Under the pieces are notes generated by a model. That model was not told where the DNA came from and made no database searches. It was given only the letters and a program-made list of their open reading frames with translations. From a virus: a stretch of DNA of 64,000 bases. The stretch lies in the IMG/VR virus record IMGVR_UViG_3300024239_000013, positions 159,142 through 223,141 of that record; one strand, 5' to 3'. Shown in pieces: positions 52,214-62,455 of this stretch. The position numbers and the translations under genes were made by a program. How positions within the stretch are numbered: position 1 is the first letter of the stretch; every line of letters begins with the position of its first letter.

Positions 52214-52762
52214 CTATTTAACTTCTAAAACTATATCTATATAGTTACATTTAAATCCCACATTAAAGCTAGTTGGCTGAGGTGAATTTGATGTGTAAGT
52301 CAATTCAAGTTCAGAAAAAGAAGTTAACGTAACTTCCTGGAAAGTTATTGACGTAACAATATTACCCTCATTATCCATAATTCTTAGTGGTAAGTTTTGT
52401 ATAAATAGGTTAGGATTTTTAAAATCCATAAAATGTAAAATTGTATCTAGCATTATAAAATAGTTTATAAAACCGTCGACATTTTTAAATTGTATATTAA
52501 AATCTCGGCTAAAAAGATCTTGTATAGGTGTTCCACTTTTATAAGTTATTCTTTTACCTAGATTTCTAGTTTGTTCAACAGAATCTATAGTCATTGAAGG
52601 GAATCCGATAGATCTAATAGTACTATTCATGTAACTAGAAACATCATCGAAGGGAATCGGTTGTTTCTTTAAGTATGGCAAATATTTATCAGTAACAACA
52701 GAAGGGAAAAATCCCTTTGGAAATACAAAATAAAAACTATTTGATTTAGGATTTAATATCAT
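52214..52762 (-). CDS. Probable tail tube-like or baseplate protein
   Basis: The 182-residue beta-rich product has a SIGFPSMTIDSVEQTRNLGK segment and a C-terminal LTSFSELELTYTSNSPQPTS then NVGFKCNYIDI. This pattern is common in gp19-type tail tube and related baseplate proteins. No diagnostic residue is visible, so the assignment rests on general pattern and on the neighbouring structural genes. It is separated by 14 bases from the large Hint-ended structural gene. Confidence 0.4.
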   Translation of the reverse strand: MILNPKSNSFYFVFPKGFFPSVVTDKYLPYLKKQPIPFDDVSSYMNSTIRSIGFPSMTIDSVEQTRNLGKRITYKSGTPIQDLFSRDFNIQFKNVDGFINYFIMLDTILHFMDFKNPNLFIQNLPLRIMDNEGNIVTSITFQEVTLTSFSELELTYTSNSPQPTSFNVGFKCNYIDIVLEVK

Positions 52763-52776
52763 CTCTATTTATATTT

Positions 52777-55512
52777 TTATTCGGAGGTTAAAAATTCTAC
52801 AGCTTTTATATTATGAGAGATTAATCCTTCTACAACATAAGTGTGAGCTTCTTCTACCTCTATTTTAACAACTGGTCCTTCACCTATTCTTTCCTTATAT
52901 TCAAGAATAGCTAACCCGTCAACAGTTTGTATTCGATCGCCTATTTGGATATCTGATACTGTAACATATCTTCCATCTTCAACCAAGAATTTATGTGATT
53001 CTGATACCTTTATAATTTTTCCAGCTACAGAAATTGATAGTATAGGTTGATTTACTATTTCGAAATAAGAAACTCTATATGAATCCCATTTTCCTGTATT
53101 TTCATGGACTGTAAAAATATAATCACCAACTTTTAAATCTCCTGCGTTTATCCATTTATCATCACCCAATAGAATTTTCATATCTGGTGTTGGACATCCT
53201 CCGCCTCCGCTATTTCTTCCAGCGAGAGTGCTTAGTGAAGAAGGAGATAATAGACCGTTAGCTGCTTCTATGAATTGTTCTTTAGTCAGGTTCGGGTATT
53301 TTATATAACCTGCCTTTCCTGGGGTAAGAAAATAACCTATTACAGTTTGATCTTGCCATCCAGTAGCCTTGTATCCAGCTATTTCTGCACTTAATGCAGA
53401 TATTAGTTGACTTCCGGAAAGAGTAGAATTAGTATTACCAGAAGGTGTTCCTATACTAAATGTACCTGAAGTTGATGTTGCAGGTTGTATATTTTTAATA
53501 ACTGGGGAAGGAGCTGGTTGTTCGACTGATCCCACTATGTTACTTCCACTTCCTGAGGATTGAATAGGATTAGATGGTGTCTCTGTTACAACATCACTTT
53601 CACCTTGTTTTTTCCAATATCCCCAGTACATAACAGAATTAGAGTTATTTACAGGAGTTATTACATTAGAAGAAGGAATATTAACGTAATTATTTACCCC
53701 ATTAATAGACATCATATCATTTCTTCTATTAGATATTACAGTTTCTACTCTTTTTTCTATAATATTATTAGTTGTTCCAGGATCAACAGAAATAGTTTCT
53801 TTACTAATAACACTAGACTGTGCTGGATTAATTGATATTCCATTAGTTATAAAAAATCTTCTATCTGTAAGTTGTAATATTTTTGTAGAAATAGACTCAT
53901 CAAGTTTAAAAGCCAATTCACCATTTGATGGATTAGCTATATTTCTATCATCTAAAGCTGGGACCTGAATTTTATTCCCCGAAGGATCTATAAAAGAGAT
54001 ATTGAAGTTTCCAGAAGAACTTAAGTCTATTGCAACTGGATCTGAGGACGGTCCACTTTTAATAAATTTAAACTTATAATAGTTATCAAAAGGAGATATT
54101 GATATTGTCATTTTTCCGGTTCCGTAAGCAATACTTTGTTCTGCTCCGGTATTTACACTTAGACTATTATCAGAAAAAACTAAATTATTTACCGTAGAAG
54201 TAACATAATTCTGATTTATGAAAACGTTTGTGTACTTAACAATTTCCTTTGGCGCAATACTTCTTCCTCCTCCCATAGTTATACCTGCCTGAGAATAAAC
54301 TCTATTATAGATTTTTTGTATTTGTGGAGATGTATTTAATTTGATAGGAGTTATATTAGTTCCCCATTGTTTTGGATTGTTTGAAGTATATGTAGATATT
54401 CTAGTAACTCTGCTTTGATCCGAATTATTTATCAAGGACATGGTGTATCTTAAAATAAAACTTGAAGATACAGCAGCATTTCTAACAATCGGTCTGTAAT
54501 AGTTAGGTAAATCATATGCGCTTGTTTGTATTGACTGAAAGCTGGAGGTTTGAATAAAAGCAGATCCAATTTGCTCCAGGACTTCTATCTGATGACTTAT
54601 ATAATAAGAATTCCCTATAGAATTCTGAAATAATATAAAGTCTTCTATAAATCCTTCATTATCTGTAGCATAATATTCAAAAAATTGTCCCTTATCAGAC
54701 TCTTTTATCATTGAGCCAATATTAGAAAAAGGATCTTCTTGTTCCAGAGAAAGAGTAGCTATACTAGCACAGTTATATCTTTCATATCCATTAAAATCAA
54801 CAGTATTTTGAACTTGCCAAGCAGTCAATCGAATAGGTGCACTATAAACGAACCCATCACCACTTGAACTAGTTAAAGAAGCTAAAGTTTCTGGTTTAAA
54901 AGACTGAGAAGAAGCAAGATACTTATCATTCATGTCTTTTAAATTTGGAACCTTTATTTCGAAATATTTGTCATATATGTTAGCTCCTATTGTTACTGGA
55001 TTTGGATTTAGATAATATTCCTGCTCAGTACCTTTTTTTATTAATATTTGTGAAACGGTAACAAATTCTAGATTTTGATCTTGATACTCGATTGACAATA
55101 TTAGACCATCTATGTTATTTAGATTATAGCCTGCTCTTATATGGTATCTTACGCTATCATAAACAACTGAAAGATTATATGGGAAATTAATAGTCAAATC
55201 TGACGTATTGGTAAGTTCATCAGAATAATCATTAAAAGGAACTATTAAATTGGAGTCCAATGTAACGAAAGAACTTTCTCCTATTCTAACTACGTTATTT
55301 TCTGTGGTGTTATGCGTAGTTTCATAATCTGAATTTTTATTAAATATCTGGACACTATTACTTCTATATCCATTTATCAATTTATTATACCCCACAGTAA
55401 CGCCACCATTATTAACAAAATGCGTTTCTGGTGTTGGTTCATCAGCATACATATACTCCATTAATAAATATGGAGTTATTTGAACGAATTTAGATGTAGT
55501 AGTAAAATCCAT
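52777..55512 (-). CDS. Large structural protein with C-terminal Hint domain
   Basis: The 911-residue protein is beta-rich for the first 760 residues, with Ser, Thr and Asn repeats typical of tail fibre or baseplate proteins. From Cys773 it has an intein-like Hint domain: block A CPTPDMKILLGDDKW, block B KVSESHKF, and the end HTYVVEGLISHN with His900-Asn901, followed by IKAVEFLTSE. The +1 residue is Ile, so normal splicing is not expected. Cleavage or transfer to a nucleophile, as in bacterial intein-like and Hedgehog domains, is more likely. A Gly-rich stretch (NSGGGG) precedes Cys773. Confidence 0.8.
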   Translation of the reverse strand: MDFTTTSKFVQITPYLLMEYMYADEPTPETHFVNNGGVTVGYNKLINGYRSNSVQIFNKNSDYETTHNTTENNVVRIGESSFVTLDSNLIVPFNDYSDELTNTSDLTINFPYNLSVVYDSVRYHIRAGYNLNNIDGLILSIEYQDQNLEFVTVSQILIKKGTEQEYYLNPNPVTIGANIYDKYFEIKVPNLKDMNDKYLASSQSFKPETLASLTSSSGDGFVYSAPIRLTAWQVQNTVDFNGYERYNCASIATLSLEQEDPFSNIGSMIKESDKGQFFEYYATDNEGFIEDFILFQNSIGNSYYISHQIEVLEQIGSAFIQTSSFQSIQTSAYDLPNYYRPIVRNAAVSSSFILRYTMSLINNSDQSRVTRISTYTSNNPKQWGTNITPIKLNTSPQIQKIYNRVYSQAGITMGGGRSIAPKEIVKYTNVFINQNYVTSTVNNLVFSDNSLSVNTGAEQSIAYGTGKMTISISPFDNYYKFKFIKSGPSSDPVAIDLSSSGNFNISFIDPSGNKIQVPALDDRNIANPSNGELAFKLDESISTKILQLTDRRFFITNGISINPAQSSVISKETISVDPGTTNNIIEKRVETVISNRRNDMMSINGVNNYVNIPSSNVITPVNNSNSVMYWGYWKKQGESDVVTETPSNPIQSSGSGSNIVGSVEQPAPSPVIKNIQPATSTSGTFSIGTPSGNTNSTLSGSQLISALSAEIAGYKATGWQDQTVIGYFLTPGKAGYIKYPNLTKEQFIEAANGLLSPSSLSTLAGRNSGGGGCPTPDMKILLGDDKWINAGDLKVGDYIFTVHENTGKWDSYRVSYFEIVNQPILSISVAGKIIKVSESHKFLVEDGRYVTVSDIQIGDRIQTVDGLAILEYKERIGEGPVVKIEVEEAHTYVVEGLISHNIKAVEFLTSE

Positions 55513-55521
55513 TTTTATATT

Positions 55522-56370
55522 TTATTTTCCAAATTGTAAAAATCTTGGTGAATAGTGAACACCTACACCAATGTAAAATCCATTATCTATACCTTTAGAA
55601 TTCCCAATTATACCATATCCAAAATTTACACCAAATCCAAATTCTTTTCTAGCAGATTTTAGTGCCTTTCTGGTTTCTGGATTGTCGGTTATATCAAAAG
55701 AATTAATTTCATTAAATCTTAGGTTCGGATAGTCAGTTGTTATTCTAGTCATTATTCTTTTTGACTTAGGGTCCTGATATATTCCAGTAACGATATCTAT
55801 ATTTTGTTCTATGTTTAGTGACGTCCCTCTAGGTATTATGTTTGCTATATATTTTGTAGAATCTCTAGAGTCTCTTTTAAGATCTATCTGATAAGGAACT
55901 TTACCTGATATTTTTAATCTATTTTTTCCGGGGAGTGAAGGTTCATGAGTAAAAACAATAGATTCTGAACCATTAGGATCTTTTATTACTTCGGAAGGTA
56001 TATTAACGATACTATCCTTATATTTGGTTACAATCTGAACTACCGTTTTTGGAGTGGTTTTCTTTCCGTTAGATTTTAATTCAAGTCTCTTTATTAGATC
56101 AATTTGATCTTTTTCTAATTGTGAAACTTTTTTCTGATATGATGATTTCTCAACTATTATTTTTCCAATCTCTTCCTTGATTACTCTTACAGAATCTCTG
56201 GCTGCTAAGTAGTTATTATGTTCTAAAGAAACATCAGATTTAGTTGTTTTTATCATTTCACATTGTTTAAATACAAGAAAGATTAAAATAACTATTACCC
56301 CGGCTAAGAATAACTTATTGGTTAATATATTATAAACTCTATTCACAATTTCTTTATTTATATACTTCAT
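55522..56370 (-). CDS. Membrane-anchored protein with coiled coil
   Basis: The 282-residue product has one N-terminal hydrophobic segment (LFLAGVIVILIFLVF, residues 21-35), a coiled coil (EEIGKIIVEKSSYQKKVSQL), a beta-rich part and a Gly/Phe-rich end (FGFGVNFGYGIIG, GFYIGVGVHYSPRF). It resembles DUF6808-type proteins of Bacteroidetes phages. The membrane anchor with an extended periplasmic part could suit a spanin, but this is only a suggestion. It overlaps the 88-residue gene by 17 bases. Confidence 0.5.
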   Translation of the reverse strand: MKYINKEIVNRVYNILTNKLFLAGVIVILIFLVFKQCEMIKTTKSDVSLEHNNYLAARDSVRVIKEEIGKIIVEKSSYQKKVSQLEKDQIDLIKRLELKSNGKKTTPKTVVQIVTKYKDSIVNIPSEVIKDPNGSESIVFTHEPSLPGKNRLKISGKVPYQIDLKRDSRDSTKYIANIIPRGTSLNIEQNIDIVTGIYQDPKSKRIMTRITTDYPNLRFNEINSFDITDNPETRKALKSARKEFGFGVNFGYGIIGNSKGIDNGFYIGVGVHYSPRFLQFGK

Positions 56371-56620
56371 TTTCTATATCTTCTTTTTTCCAAACTAGAT
56401 TTATAGGATCTAGTGTTCCATGTCCATATTTTTTCTCCAATTCCAATATGTACATTCTTTCAGCTTCCCTACATTCTTCTAACATAAGAATGAGTTCTGC
56501 TGATCTTTCCTCCATATCTTTAATAGTTCTCTCGACACTTAAGATCTCTTTGTGTATGCCTACAAAATCCTTTGATAGGTTAAGCATATTTTCTCTTTCC
56601 TCTTTATTTAAATCTATCAT
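56354..56620 (-). CDS. Hypothetical coiled-coil protein, 88 aa
   Basis: The product is a single long amphipathic helix (KDMEERSAELILMLEECREA) with a short C-terminal tail (GTLDPINLVWKKEDIENE). No family was recognised. The end overlaps the start of the membrane-anchored protein gene, so the pair may act together. Confidence 0.5.
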   Translation of the reverse strand: MIDLNKEERENMLNLSKDFVGIHKEILSVERTIKDMEERSAELILMLEECREAERMYILELEKKYGHGTLDPINLVWKKEDIENEVYK

Positions 56621-56646
56621 ATTATATATATTTTTATTTTAAACTG

Positions 56647-59193
56647 TCAAAAACTATTATATCCATTATAATCAGGATCTAAATAATCTGGTGGTTTTAT
56701 ATTATGAGAAACTGCTCCTTCTAATACGTATGTGTGAGCATTCTCTACTTCTATTTTAACTACCTCCATCAAACCTATATTTTTCTTGGATTCTATATGG
56801 GATATACCATCTAAAGTTACTACTGAACTTCCTATATTAAGATCTATCAATGGTATATAATCACCCTCAGGGGTTAAGAATCTATGCATTTCAGATACTT
56901 TAATTTCTTTACCTCCGATAACAACCAAAATTACATCTTGGAATGCTCTTTGAGTATATTTTACTTTATAATAATCCCAAATATTAGTTATTTCATGAGG
57001 AGTATAAACTAAATCACCAATAACCAATTCACCAGCAGATTTCCATTTATCTTCTCCCATATAAATAAGCATATCAGGTGTAGGACAATATGGAATCTCT
57101 CTAGATGAACTAGATGAACTAGAGGTACCATCACCATTATAACTTGAAGATGCTGGCGATGACCCTCCTGAAGTTATAGGTTGACTAGAACCTATACTAT
57201 TAAGATTAGTCAAATCTACAAATCCTCCTATTCCATTGGATGCTTTATAAAAGAGTCTAGGATTAAGATTTGTCGTGTTTGCTATACCTAACCAATGTAA
57301 ATCAATATATTGACAAAATCTATTTGTATTTGTTGGATTTGTTGGAATTATTGGAGCTATAGTAGTAGTTGTCGTGGTCCCCCCTGTATACTGTTTAGCT
57401 TTAATATATATTACATTCTCGTTTGTGCCGATAAAAGTATATGATTTACTAGAGCTATAATTACTACCATTGTCTGGACACATAGACGTTTCTATTGCTA
57501 TCTGCTCACCATTGTTCCCTATAAACGTTACCACATCTCCAGACTTTAGGCCATAAATTCTTGTAAGAGTTTGACAAGATGACCAGCTAGTCGGTGGTAA
57601 AAAATTAAATGGTCCCCCATTTATACTATATTTTAATAATGTCGAGGATCCGTCTGTTGCTGAATTAATTAAAATGATTCCACTTGGAAAAATTGTAGAT
57701 GTTAAATCTAAATAACTTAGGATATTATTTGAAGTCAATCCTCCTGATCCGTAACTAGTATAATTAAAAACTAGTCCCTGAATATATCTTGAATTTGGGT
57801 TAGAATCTAAATTATTAAGCAATATCCTATATGTATTACTTTTTCCCGTACTATAAACAGGATCAAAAACATTTAAGTATGACGAAGGTATTCTAAGATA
57901 TATTCCTGATTGATTCCCCGATGTATAAAAAGTTGGTGTAATAACTATAACATTAGAATTCCATAATGAAACGTCACTTAAATCAAAAACATTATTTAAA
58001 ACTGTAGATCCTAAAGTATTAGAAGGATATTTTGCAACAGAGGAAACAGAACTTGTATTTTTAGTGACGTATGATGCTTTCTTAACATGATAAGAAAAAG
58101 GTCCTCCTGTTCCTCCTGTAGCTCCTCCAGTAGATCCAAATATCGTCTGAGCATGTTTCCCACTATCTACGGTACCCGATGGTTTACCCGATAAAATAGG
58201 ATTTCCTGTAAGATCATCTATTCTAAAAGAATCGTCTGCTGAAGATGTAGTTGCTATAACTATTCCGGAGTTTAAACCCCCTGATTGTGGAACGTCATTC
58301 ATCACATAACTTCCGGTTTCAGAGTATATCACAGTTGGATCAGAGTGAACTAGATAAAGAGAAGATAATAGTAGATTTTTTGAAGTAACTCCAAAGATAC
58401 CTCCACTTCCTATGGTTACATTAGAAGAAAGATAAAAATTACCATCACCTTTAATAACAAAATCTGAAGAATTCGAGCTAAAATTATTACCGAATAATAT
58501 ATTTCTAGCAGCTCCCGAATCTATGGATAATATTAAATTTGATTTTATTTCAAGATTTCCGGAAGATTTATAAATTAAATTTCTATTACTTCCTATGTTT
58601 TCCCAATAAAATGAAGGAATTCCATTAGAAGTAGAAGAAGATTTAGAAAAACTTAATATCGGATAACTCGTTTGATCTTTTGTTGCTATTACCAATTTGG
58701 ATTTATTCGGATTTGAATAAGAAGGATCTATTGATCCATCGCTTAAAACTAAACTTGTTTTTTCTAAATCCCCATTATTTTTTAAACCGATAACATACTT
58801 ATCAGTTGATGAAGCAGGTCCTTGTATCCAAGAATAATTAGAAAAGTATGAAGAACTGAAAAAAGAATACCCTGAATATATCCAATCTCCATTAGAATCT
58901 AAAAAGTTAACAGATCCCTCGCCGGTTGAATTGTCGATCCAAATATCATATTCACGGGATAATCCAATTTCTGGGGTTGAAGATTGTTTAAAGAAAATTG
59001 TACCTCTATCTCCAGTTACTCCACTTTCTCCCTTATATCCAGCAGGACCGGGTAACCCGGTAGCACCTCTAGGACCTTGGTGTCCATCAGGACCTACAGA
59101 AAAAGACAATATTTGGTTGAAATTATAGTTTATTTTATCTACTATTTCCTTCCTATCGTCTCCCTTAAAAATATATTTAGTATTAAATTTCAT
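56647..59193 (-). CDS. Collagen-like fibre protein with C-terminal Hint domain
   Basis: This 848-residue protein begins like its two neighbours: DRKEIVDKINYNFNQIL, a Gly-x-y collagen-like stretch of about 30 residues (GPDGHQGPRGATGLPGPAGY and more), then EYDIWIDNSTGEGSV with a W-x-x-x-G-Y-S end. A long beta-rich region follows. The last 146 residues are a Hint domain: CPTPDMLIYMGEDKW from Cys703, KVSEMHRF, and HTYVLEGAVSHN ending at His830-Asn831, followed by IKPPDYLD. The +1 residue is again not Cys, Ser or Thr. It is probably a tail fibre or head decoration fibre. It resembles the 52777-55512 Hint domain closely. Confidence 0.82.
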   Translation of the reverse strand: MKFNTKYIFKGDDRKEIVDKINYNFNQILSFSVGPDGHQGPRGATGLPGPAGYKGESGVTGDRGTIFFKQSSTPEIGLSREYDIWIDNSTGEGSVNFLDSNGDWIYSGYSFFSSSYFSNYSWIQGPASSTDKYVIGLKNNGDLEKTSLVLSDGSIDPSYSNPNKSKLVIATKDQTSYPILSFSKSSSTSNGIPSFYWENIGSNRNLIYKSSGNLEIKSNLILSIDSGAARNILFGNNFSSNSSDFVIKGDGNFYLSSNVTIGSGGIFGVTSKNLLLSSLYLVHSDPTVIYSETGSYVMNDVPQSGGLNSGIVIATTSSADDSFRIDDLTGNPILSGKPSGTVDSGKHAQTIFGSTGGATGGTGGPFSYHVKKASYVTKNTSSVSSVAKYPSNTLGSTVLNNVFDLSDVSLWNSNVIVITPTFYTSGNQSGIYLRIPSSYLNVFDPVYSTGKSNTYRILLNNLDSNPNSRYIQGLVFNYTSYGSGGLTSNNILSYLDLTSTIFPSGIILINSATDGSSTLLKYSINGGPFNFLPPTSWSSCQTLTRIYGLKSGDVVTFIGNNGEQIAIETSMCPDNGSNYSSSKSYTFIGTNENVIYIKAKQYTGGTTTTTTIAPIIPTNPTNTNRFCQYIDLHWLGIANTTNLNPRLFYKASNGIGGFVDLTNLNSIGSSQPITSGGSSPASSSYNGDGTSSSSSSSREIPYCPTPDMLIYMGEDKWKSAGELVIGDLVYTPHEITNIWDYYKVKYTQRAFQDVILVVIGGKEIKVSEMHRFLTPEGDYIPLIDLNIGSSVVTLDGISHIESKKNIGLMEVVKIEVENAHTYVLEGAVSHNIKPPDYLDPDYNGYNSF

Positions 59194-59194
59194 A

Positions 59195-60880
59195 TTAAAC
59201 TATTGAATTACTTGTTGTTAAAACTCCACAGTATATATTAGCTAAATTTCCACCCCATGCAGAATAAAAAACTTTATACCATCTTCTATTTCCTCCAGTA
59301 GAGCCAATTCCTCCACTAGCACCATTTATATTAACAATAGTGAACTCTACGCTTGATGCGTATTCTCCCAAAGGGAAAAATGCAACTTCTTCGTTTGTCC
59401 CCATATTATATGTACTAGGTAATCCTCCGGGTGATTCTGACGTATTCAGTCCAACAAATCTAAAACAATCTGATGTAGACGATGGATTGCTACTGTGTAC
59501 TTTAAATGATATCGATTCCTGAGTATCTAGTAAATTTAACCACCCTTTATTAAATCCTGTTGTACCTCCTGTAGCAGGTGTCCATATACATATTCCTCTT
59601 TCTCCTGAAGATGCTGAAGGAGATTTTTCTATAACAAAATCAGATCCGTTGTTAACGTAATAATAATTACCGCTATTTGTATTTACCGATATCGAAGGAA
59701 TTATATTAGTCCAATTAACAACAGTTGAAGCATAAGTTCCCTGTCCGGTTTCAGCTAGTTTCTGTGAAGGTTGTGCTGAATTTACTTTCTTGTCCACATA
59801 AACATACCCTGCCCCAAAAACTGTAAATAAAGATCCACTTCCTTGTGTAACTTTTAACAGGAAAGCATTATTGTTAGATGTAGATTTATATAAATATCTT
59901 AGGTTACCAGTAGTCGGAGATCCTGATATCAAATGTAAAGGTGGTTTGTCATCACTTGATTCTGAATATCCATTAAAACTAGTAGTTATATTAAATCCAT
60001 CTACTGAGTATGTTATATTCTTAGTTGAAAACAGTGCAGATCCTGAATTAAAATCCAGATAAAGATCATTAGTAGCATTAACACTAAATAGCTGTGAACT
60101 ATCAAAATAAAAATTAAATCCTAATGAATTTAAAGAAACTGAAGAAGTACTAGATTCTAATAGTAGGTTTGATGTGGGTATATTTATCGTAAATCTATCA
60201 GAAGTACTAAATCTCAGACCATAATCACCTCTATTTGCAGTAGCTCCCTGATCCCAATAGAATCTAGGGGTTCCTGAAGTAAAACTTAAATCCTTATAGT
60301 CAGATTTGGTAAACTCTAATATATTTTTATTTGGATCAGATCCATTTACTGATAATACGAATTTAGAATATTGAGGATTAAATATAGTATTTGGTGAGGA
60401 TTCAGTTCCACTTTCCATTGAAGGATTGTCACTAATAACAACAGTATAATTTATAGGGGTATTTTGTGACAAAAAATACCCATATTTACCAGAATTTCCT
60501 AATGAATTTGAAATAGGTCCAGATATTCTAAATAGATCTTCAGATTTAAGGTTTATCCCATAATAAGACCAGGACCCAGTGGAACCTAATTGATAAATAG
60601 AGTTTGACAAATCTGTATTTAACCAAAAATCGCCTATTCTTGATGTAATGGGTGTAGGTTGGCATGGACCAACAGACCATATACTTCCTCTAGGACCTTG
60701 ATCTCCGTATGATCCTATAGGTCCGGTCTCCCCCTTATTACCCTCTGGACCTTTGGATCCGATTCTTCCATACGGCCCACCTTTAAGTGTTAACAGATTT
60801 GAGAAATTTTGATTTACTTTATCTGTTAAATTCTTCTGAGAATCTCCTTCTTTAATTCTTAATAAATTTAATTCTGACAT
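59195..60880 (-). CDS. Collagen-like fibre protein
   Basis: The 561-residue product has the same plan as its neighbours: GDSQKNLTDKVNQNFSNLL, a Gly-x-y stretch (GPYGRIGSKGPEGNKGETGP and more), then IGDFWLNTDLSNSIYQLG followed by a W-x-x-Y-G segment. A long beta-rich Ser/Asn/Gly region completes it. There is no Hint domain. The ATG lies two bases upstream of the neighbouring gene's start region and the gene is co-transcribed with it. It probably forms a trimeric fibre, inferred from the collagen-like part. Confidence 0.75.
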   Translation of the reverse strand: MSELNLLRIKEGDSQKNLTDKVNQNFSNLLTLKGGPYGRIGSKGPEGNKGETGPIGSYGDQGPRGSIWSVGPCQPTPITSRIGDFWLNTDLSNSIYQLGSTGSWSYYGINLKSEDLFRISGPISNSLGNSGKYGYFLSQNTPINYTVVISDNPSMESGTESSPNTIFNPQYSKFVLSVNGSDPNKNILEFTKSDYKDLSFTSGTPRFYWDQGATANRGDYGLRFSTSDRFTINIPTSNLLLESSTSSVSLNSLGFNFYFDSSQLFSVNATNDLYLDFNSGSALFSTKNITYSVDGFNITTSFNGYSESSDDKPPLHLISGSPTTGNLRYLYKSTSNNNAFLLKVTQGSGSLFTVFGAGYVYVDKKVNSAQPSQKLAETGQGTYASTVVNWTNIIPSISVNTNSGNYYYVNNGSDFVIEKSPSASSGERGICIWTPATGGTTGFNKGWLNLLDTQESISFKVHSSNPSSTSDCFRFVGLNTSESPGGLPSTYNMGTNEEVAFFPLGEYASSVEFTIVNINGASGGIGSTGGNRRWYKVFYSAWGGNLANIYCGVLTTSNSIV

Positions 60881-60907: not shown

Positions 60908-60915
60908 TATATATC
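60908..60915 (-). promoter_or_regulatory. Candidate GATATATA promoter box
   Basis: TTTGATATATACAATAATT overlaps the stop of the upstream fibre gene and lies 27 bases before the ATG at 60880. Confidence 0.35.
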
Positions 60916-62455
60916 AAATATTAAAAGATCCTCCATATCCTCCTGTCGGACCGTATGCTCTATAAAAAACCGTTATGTTATTATCTCCAGTAACTCCTCT
61001 AGATATAGTAAAGTCTATATTACTAGCAGAAAAAGGCAAAGATATAACATTAGAAACATCTCCACTAGTTGCTCCTTTACCGATATATTTAATACCGTCA
61101 GTAAAACCACTCTGTACACTTGTTGGACTATAATGAACATTTATATCTATAGATTGTCCTGGGTCTAATCCCCCTGTGGTACCCCAAGAATAATTGGATG
61201 CACTATAGATTCCAATTCCTATGTAGCTACTACTAGGAACTGTTGGATTTATGACAATAGTGTTTCCAGTTTGTAAAACTGCAGAAGATACCGGAGTTGA
61301 TGAACGAGAGATTAAATACCAATTAACAAAATTCGAAGAAACTGAGCTAGTTGCTCCTGGTGTAGCTGAAGCATAAGATATTCCAGTTTCGATTTTTTTT
61401 GTTTTTATTTTACCTTTTGTGTTTATGTAGAATTCTCTTTCAGAAGAAGATTCTAAAGAAACAGCATAAACCGAATTTGAAAGTGTCTGGAAAGTATCAG
61501 CAGATCTGGATGTTCTAAATCCATATTTACCCCCATTATACGTGTATATGGAAGGAGCTGTTGATGTAAGAGAAGCTGTTAAATTAACAGGTGCATTGAT
61601 GTATCCAGACCCCCCTGTTATGTTCATAAAAGCACTTCTGATCTTGAATTCATTCGTTGAATTCATAGAAAATCCGCCGGTGGAGAAAATTCCAGAATTG
61701 GAATCGATACCATAATTTATTTCAACACCTCTTGGAGACTGTATGGATAAATTATTGAATCTAGATTGAAACCCTCCAGATACTCCGGTAACAAAAGATC
61801 CTCCGGGTATTTCTAAAACTAAAGAATTATCATTTAAAGAAAAGTTTTTCCATCTAAAAATTGGATGCTTTGAATAATCAGAAACGGATCCTGATTCTAT
61901 ATTACTTTTAGAAAATTCTAATATAGGAGAATCGTTTACTGAGACATTGGTAGATATAACAAATTTTGAAAGATCTTCATTCAATATACCCGACTCTGGG
62001 ACATCGTCTGCTACTATAAATAAATAATTCTGAGGAGAATTTTGATCGAATGTTATAACAAATCCAGTTCCTCCTGAAACATAATCAACCTCATCTTTTC
62101 TAAATATAGATCCTTCGGATGATAAACTATACCCAGTAGAAGTCCATCCACTTTCATTAAAAACATAAATTTTTCCGTCGTTTGAATCTATCCAGAAATC
62201 GCCTTCCATCACCGTATTATATGGACCTGAAGGTTGAGCTAAATTAACAAACCATCTATTCCCTCTTATTCCAGTAGCACCAGTATTTCCAGCAGGTCCT
62301 TTGCTTCCAGCAGGTCCTGTGTCTCCTACAGGTCCGGTTATACCCTGAGTTCCACCATTAGCTTCTATAATTTCATCAAAATTATAGTTTAGTTTGTCTA
62401 TTGCATCAGATTGAGAATCGTTATAATCTAAATACTGTATATTAGTAATTGGCAT
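60914..62455 (-). CDS. Collagen-like fibre protein
   Basis: The 513-residue product is the third member of the group: NDSQSDAIDKLNYNFDEII, a Gly-x-y stretch (GITGPVGDTGPAGSKGPAGN and more), then EGDFWIDSNDGKIYVFNESG with a W-x-x-x-G-Y-S end, and a beta-rich distal part that ends GPTGGYGGSFNI. No Hint domain is present. Similar N-termini with different distal parts suggest that these proteins share an attachment point and differ in what they bind. Confidence 0.75.
   Translation of the reverse strand: MPITNIQYLDYNDSQSDAIDKLNYNFDEIIEANGGTQGITGPVGDTGPAGSKGPAGNTGATGIRGNRWFVNLAQPSGPYNTVMEGDFWIDSNDGKIYVFNESGWTSTGYSLSSEGSIFRKDEVDYVSGGTGFVITFDQNSPQNYLFIVADDVPESGILNEDLSKFVISTNVSVNDSPILEFSKSNIESGSVSDYSKHPIFRWKNFSLNDNSLVLEIPGGSFVTGVSGGFQSRFNNLSIQSPRGVEINYGIDSNSGIFSTGGFSMNSTNEFKIRSAFMNITGGSGYINAPVNLTASLTSTAPSIYTYNGGKYGFRTSRSADTFQTLSNSVYAVSLESSSEREFYINTKGKIKTKKIETGISYASATPGATSSVSSNFVNWYLISRSSTPVSSAVLQTGNTIVINPTVPSSSYIGIGIYSASNYSWGTTGGLDPGQSIDINVHYSPTSVQSGFTDGIKYIGKGATSGDVSNVISLPFSASNIDFTISRGVTGDNNITVFYRAYGPTGGYGGSFNI

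Follow-up and report, generated by a model that had tools for sequence, protein, structure and literature searches.

What is a Hint domain that lacks a splicing nucleophile doing at the very end of a phage fibre? The question is raised by a 64-kb stretch of DNA (hereafter the window; 64,000 nucleotides, positions 159,142 to 223,141 of the 319,334-base virus record IMGVR_UViG_3300024239_000013), in which two open reading frames (ORFs), A and B, lie among tail-type genes and each ends in such a domain. Judging from orthologous loci and their sequences, the Hint is an optional, exchangeable C-terminal module set behind a linker on otherwise complete fibres. As to its function, we rate first, at about an even chance, the reading that the two Hints are caps resembling bacterial intein-like domains (BILs) of the A type, which would cleave before their own cysteine and be shed. 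The parts concerned are listed here (aa, amino acids).

52777-55512, minus strand: ORF A, a 911-aa tail or virion protein with no family assigned; core residues 1-768, then the GGGG linker and the Hint.
53197-53208, minus strand: GGGG linker of ORF A, immediately upstream of Cys773 in the translation; Hint-less orthologues end just upstream.
52810-53196, minus strand: putative A-type-BIL-like Hint of ORF A, Cys773 to Asn901, 129 aa, from sequence comparison and an AlphaFold model.
52780-52809, minus strand: tail of ORF A, IKAVEFLTSE, 10 residues after His-Asn with Ile at +1, modelled as disordered.
56647-59193, minus strand: ORF B, an 848-aa collagen-repeat fibre protein with a C-terminal Hint; Collagen and tail-fibre family matches.
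57088-57162, minus strand: Gly/Ser-rich linker of ORF B ahead of Cys703; the Hint-less fibre of locus L025 ends within the same linker type (TGSGGSSSS, then stop).
56701-57087, minus strand: putative A-type-BIL-like Hint of ORF B, Cys703 to Asn831, 129 aa, from sequence comparison and a tree.
56650-56700, minus strand: tail of ORF B, IKPPDYLDPDYNGYNSF, 17 residues after His-Asn with Ile at +1, from the translation.

ORF A ends ...GRNSGGGG/C773PTPDM...VVEGLISHN901/IKAVEFLTSE and ORF B ends ...SSREIPY/C703PTPDM...VLEGAVSHN831/IKPPDYLDPDYNGYNSF (slashes mark the Hint ends; tail lengths are counted from the +1 Ile). The translations bear out the original prediction, made from the letters of the window, that the domains start at Cys773 and Cys703, close with SHNIK and a short tail, and carry Ile at +1 in place of a splicing nucleophile. 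The two domains had also been described as near-identical, but they share 49% identity, and in a tree the Hint of B clustered with the B Hints of other phages (support 98/99), apart from that of A. A recent duplication between A and B was ruled out on this grouping. A scan of the 319-kb genome for this Hint subfamily gave no match beyond the A and B sites.

Family profiles matched the domains weakly: Pfam PT-HINT (PF07591) scored 24.2 bits against a cut-off of 27.7 for A and gave no match for B, Pfam Intein_splicing scored 21.5/17.2 bits against a cut-off of 35.8, and NCBIfam matches were likewise weak and below cut-off. With phmmer, the top match among PDB sequences was the Clostridium thermocellum BIL 2LWY (1.4e-6). 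In an AlphaFold model made from 18 relatives, the Hint reached a predicted local distance difference test score (pLDDT) of about 95, and the linker and tail were disordered. Foldseek placed BIL2 of Tetrahymena BUBL1 first (6Y75; E 4e-10, template modelling (TM) score 0.80), then 2LWY (TM 0.78/0.85), with mini-inteins close behind and Hedgehog lower down. Because of the phmmer match to 2LWY and the matches of the AlphaFold model to BIL and intein structures (E about 1e-10), we take the C-terminal domains of A and B, from sequence and model, to be real Hint domains and not chance matches.

Conservation was read from the 18 relatives, whose identity to the A segment is 39–64%. Cys1, Ser65, His68, the block-F His118, His128 and Asn129 were invariant in all 18, as were Thr29 and His31, and Glu32 was nearly so. 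The active-site blocks had been expected to be complete; this held for Cys1, His68 and the terminal His-Asn, whereas block B in this subfamily is Ser-x-x-His, where T-x-x-H is usual and where most relatives of the CF type (introduced below) have Thr. The +1 residue, Ile in A and B, varied among Ile, Val, Leu and Lys across relatives. In terms of sequence, the domains have every residue that an N-to-S acyl shift and Asn cyclisation call for, and lack only the +1 nucleophile. The prediction of a BIL-like domain on fibre-type proteins is in line with this conservation and with BIL structures as the best match. Most pairs were saturated at synonymous sites for the ratio of nonsynonymous to synonymous substitution rates (dN/dS), and the least saturated pairs were used: dN/dS was 0.064 for the Hint and 0.034 for the core in L015/L016, and 0.127 and 0.091, respectively, in L021/L019. 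The low values for the Hint indicate that the domain is maintained by purifying selection, less strictly than the core.

We then compared the C-termini of 64 loci orthologous to ORF A. Most orthologues ended right after the conserved segment ...AADGILSPASISSISGQ; a linker, mostly Gly-rich, and a Hint extended beyond the core in the window and in L015, L016, L035, L045, L046 and L052. Fibre B carried the CPTPDM Hint in the window and in L015, L016, L018, L020, L021, L035 and L063, a Hint of another subfamily (CFxxGT, or CF-type) in L045, L046, L052 and L029, and no Hint in L025, where it ended ...TSPPASTTGSGGSSSS. L048 has in the Hint's place an unrelated module, which begins GKIICNLLYRQG. In dereplicated sets, 5 of the 33 A orthologues and 7 of the 30 B orthologues bore a Hint, and in all five genomes with a Hint-bearing A protein, B was Hint-bearing too. 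The A-core tree placed the Hint-bearing A proteins in two separate groups among Hint-less ones, with some deep forks weakly supported. Since Hint-less orthologues end at the linker, folding of the fibre does not need the Hint, and the presence of two Hint subfamilies at the same fibre position suggests that what is kept there is a Hint and not one inherited insertion. The idea that a chaperone-like C-terminal part is cut off was not upheld, as the Hint is followed by just 10 and 17 residues, and orthologues that lack it are complete.

The third module, the last ~113 aa of fibre B in L048 and L232, reads KIIC[DN]xLYxQG...KPWSEHM...GK.IH and contains Cys. This KIIC-type module also ends several other phage proteins (L233-L251), and it had no match in Pfam or NCBIfam. 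That A and B are complete without a Hint, and that a non-Hint module can take the same place, would suit a Hint fold that makes no use of its chemistry and acts as a binding module or folded cap. Against this stands the invariance of Cys1, S-x-x-H, the block-F His and His-Asn across relatives, including those on unrelated host proteins, and we regard a non-catalytic role as quite improbable.

The same layout was found in other phage proteins. A scan for Gly4-Cys-Phe-x-x-Gly-Thr alone gave at least 72 complete matches in at least 41 clusters. Among the matches listed, the Hint was the last domain in 37 of 41 clusters, and 24 of these 37 C-terminal CF-type clusters ended in His-Asn followed by a tail of 3–18 residues, never 0; [TS]xxH was present in all 24. 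Identified carriers were the central tail fibre J (L110, L117 and L143), a tail protein with N-terminal similarity to the baseplate hub (L113) and an Ig-decorated tail protein (L154). The C-terminal parts of J and of Ig-decorated tail proteins are usually outward-facing or host-touching. In Trichodesmium phage NCTB (LT598654), the nearest annotated genome, a 'large intein domain protein' of 1305 aa has the same layout and adjoins collagen fibres. A first scan of bacterial genomes for close relatives found none, and a second yielded only an internal, distant Hint from a cyanobacterial metagenome-assembled genome.

Other arrangements were also observed. L109, L115, L118, L133 and others carry Gly-linked C-terminal CF-type Hints without His-Asn on Gly-rich phage proteins, mostly ending ...ILNA or INAS. 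A minority of Hints in both subfamilies were internal or tandem, with Gly-rich flanks. One phage protein in L100, L101 and L102 has internal CPTPDM Hints with Lys at +1, as a tandem in L100 and L101; a long stretch of poly-Gly and another domain come after them. In L123, a lambda-J-like tail protein has a Hint at its N-terminus, with HN/GGGGGKG directly after it.

The patchy distribution, and sites in Gly-rich low-complexity stretches that are at times internal or tandem, could point to selfish or decaying mini-inteins sitting where they do no harm. We find this very improbable: the A and B Hints have no endonuclease and are under purifying selection, one orthologous position hosts two Hint subfamilies, the domain is nearly always C-terminal, where host function needs no splicing, and this genome has its true intein elsewhere, split and with a +1 Cys, in an RNA-ligase-like gene.

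In the reading we rate first, Cys1 would carry out an N-to-S acyl shift, attacking the peptide bond ahead of it to form a thioester, and water or a cellular thiol would resolve this thioester, so that the Hint is shed. The mature fibre would end in its own Gly/Ser linker, resembling natural Hint-less orthologues, and Asn cyclisation would separately trim the short C-terminal tail. The Hint might, at a guess, temporarily cap the fibre end that faces outward while the fibre is synthesised and assembled. Every catalytic step is proposed by analogy: known A-type BILs cleave at either end (PMC5874633, PMC7765530), and the precedents for the BIL thioester comprise three fates, namely hydrolysis or thiolysis, attack by an outside amine, and attack by the tail through its freed amino group (PMC7765530, PMC5874633, PMC9185962, PMC8616854). 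We rate shedding above transfer and splicing because Hint-less orthologues resemble the shed product and no partner is known. Several points nevertheless weigh against shedding. Among the matches listed, 13 of the 37 C-terminal CF-type clusters lack the terminal His-Asn; His-Asn and the tail would be superfluous were shedding the whole purpose; and Cys follows Tyr in B, and Phe or Ser in relatives, so Gly at −1 is not required.

The tail, always present among the matches listed with a minimum of 3 residues, might itself be the substrate: after Asn cyclisation, its amino group would attack the thioester, ligating the tail to the linker and excising the Hint without a +1 nucleophile. A-type BILs are able to splice (PMC5874633). 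However, tail sequence and length are hardly conserved past the first two residues, so a ligated end would be of little purpose, and Hint-less orthologues manage without a tail, which makes such splicing distinctly unlikely in our estimation.

The thioester could also be attacked by an amine (Lys or an N-terminus) of a virion subunit or of the host surface, giving an amide or isopeptide bond. A precedent is Tetrahymena BIL2, which needs no ATP to couple a ubiquitin-like domain to Lys through an isopeptide bond (PMC8616854) and which is the top structural match; the Hints sit on outward ends (collagen fibres, fibre J, Ig-decorated and baseplate-hub-like tail proteins), and Gly-rich linkers lend reach. 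Yet ordinary inteins rank nearly as high in Foldseek, so the BIL2 match is no proof of chemistry, no partner or trigger is known, thiols of the producing cell would reach the thioester first, and transfer alone leaves the conserved His-Asn and tail unexplained. We consider covalent transfer unlikely. A wider form of the idea seems rather unlikely to us, namely that phage fibre tips bear self-activating C-terminal thioester modules as a virus-encoded, ATP-free, irreversible adhesive, which would fix the fibre covalently onto the surface of the host or onto adjacent virion proteins, the fibre-end slot also taking other exchangeable Cys-containing modules.

With A-type BILs (e.g., 2LWY), the A and B Hints share a size of ~130 residues, Cys1, the terminal His-Asn, the absence of an endonuclease and of Cys, Ser or Thr at +1, and a location in variable, non-conserved proteins; their sequences appear to fit the A-type BIL definition save for Ser instead of Thr in block B. 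They differ in being carried on phage virion-type proteins, usually Gly/Ser-linked and nearly always last, and in the Ser-x-x-His block B, nearly invariant CPTP..M and invariant T-x-H of their subfamily. BIL2 of the Tetrahymena BUBL1 polyubiquitin locus (6Y75/6TMM), the best structural match, is self-processing and can hand on its upstream part; it targets Lys with a ubiquitin-like domain, whereas the likeness of A and B to it lies only in the structure match. The Hog domain of Hedgehog is likewise a Cys-first C-terminal Hint that could release or modify the upstream part, but A and B have no sterol-recognition region and keep a His-Asn that Hog does not use. The proposed adducts with cholesterol-like nucleophiles find no footing here, as that region is absent and the proteins end right after the Hint. 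PT-HINT of polymorphic toxins (PF07591) is also located near the C-terminus of long surface-facing proteins and gave the weak Pfam match; in A and B, by contrast, a tail of 10–17 residues follows and no toxin or other domain. Toxin release was ruled out, as no domain stands after the Hint. Conventional and split phage inteins (terminase, DnaB, RNA ligase) have the same fold and most active-site positions, but the A and B Hints lack the +1 nucleophile, the endonuclease and a C-extein worth splicing, and they lie not at conserved enzyme sites but on the C-termini of variable fibres, absent from most orthologues. By the features tested, the A and B Hints are neither inteins nor Hog domains nor polymorphic-toxin Hints.

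The novelty lies in the setting, that is, exchangeable, linker-borne, C-terminal Hints on phage fibre and tail proteins, which is undescribed in the open-access literature searched: no paper on C-terminal Hint domains of phage fibres was found there, and a jumbo-phage review likewise contained none. The chemistry of BILs is well studied, and few biological roles are known; their occurrence as exchangeable ends of fibres and J, in at least two subfamilies, would offer a role that can be tested, in the maturation of virions or in attachment to hosts. Should an outside amine take up the thioester, this would be a new way for a virus to attach covalently, and a natural tool for ligating proteins; if the Hint is merely shed, it would be a new protease-free fibre maturation.

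The fibre character of ORF B is seen at its N-terminal side.

59002-59094, minus strand: collagen-like Gly-x-y repeats of ORF B, residues 34-64 (Pfam PF01391, PHROG tail fibre).

Collagen repeats and phage tail-fibre family matches were also present in the next two ORFs upstream of B (59195-60880 and 60914-62455), and the ORF after A (52214-52762) matched tail-tube proteins. The AlphaFold model of ORF A was mostly beta with low confidence (pLDDT 61), and a search by fold for its identity gave no usable match, only scattered beta-sandwich matches (TM about 0.1). No ORF A orthologue with a Hint was found in the cultured phages searched; Flavobacterium phage MaF61 has a 27%-identical relative, aligned only outside the Hint. 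Between A and B, a 282-aa protein (55522-56370, minus strand) with a hydrophobic N-terminal segment and a weak DUF6808 match is kept in orthologous loci, Hint-bearing or not. Outside the window, the same genome has an RNA-ligase-like gene in two ORFs (G000:C1 78858-81441), each with half of a canonical intein; the C half ends VHN/C, with Cys at +1, and a 322-aa endonuclease-like ORF lies between the halves. This locus is a 'fractured gene' with a conventional split intein.
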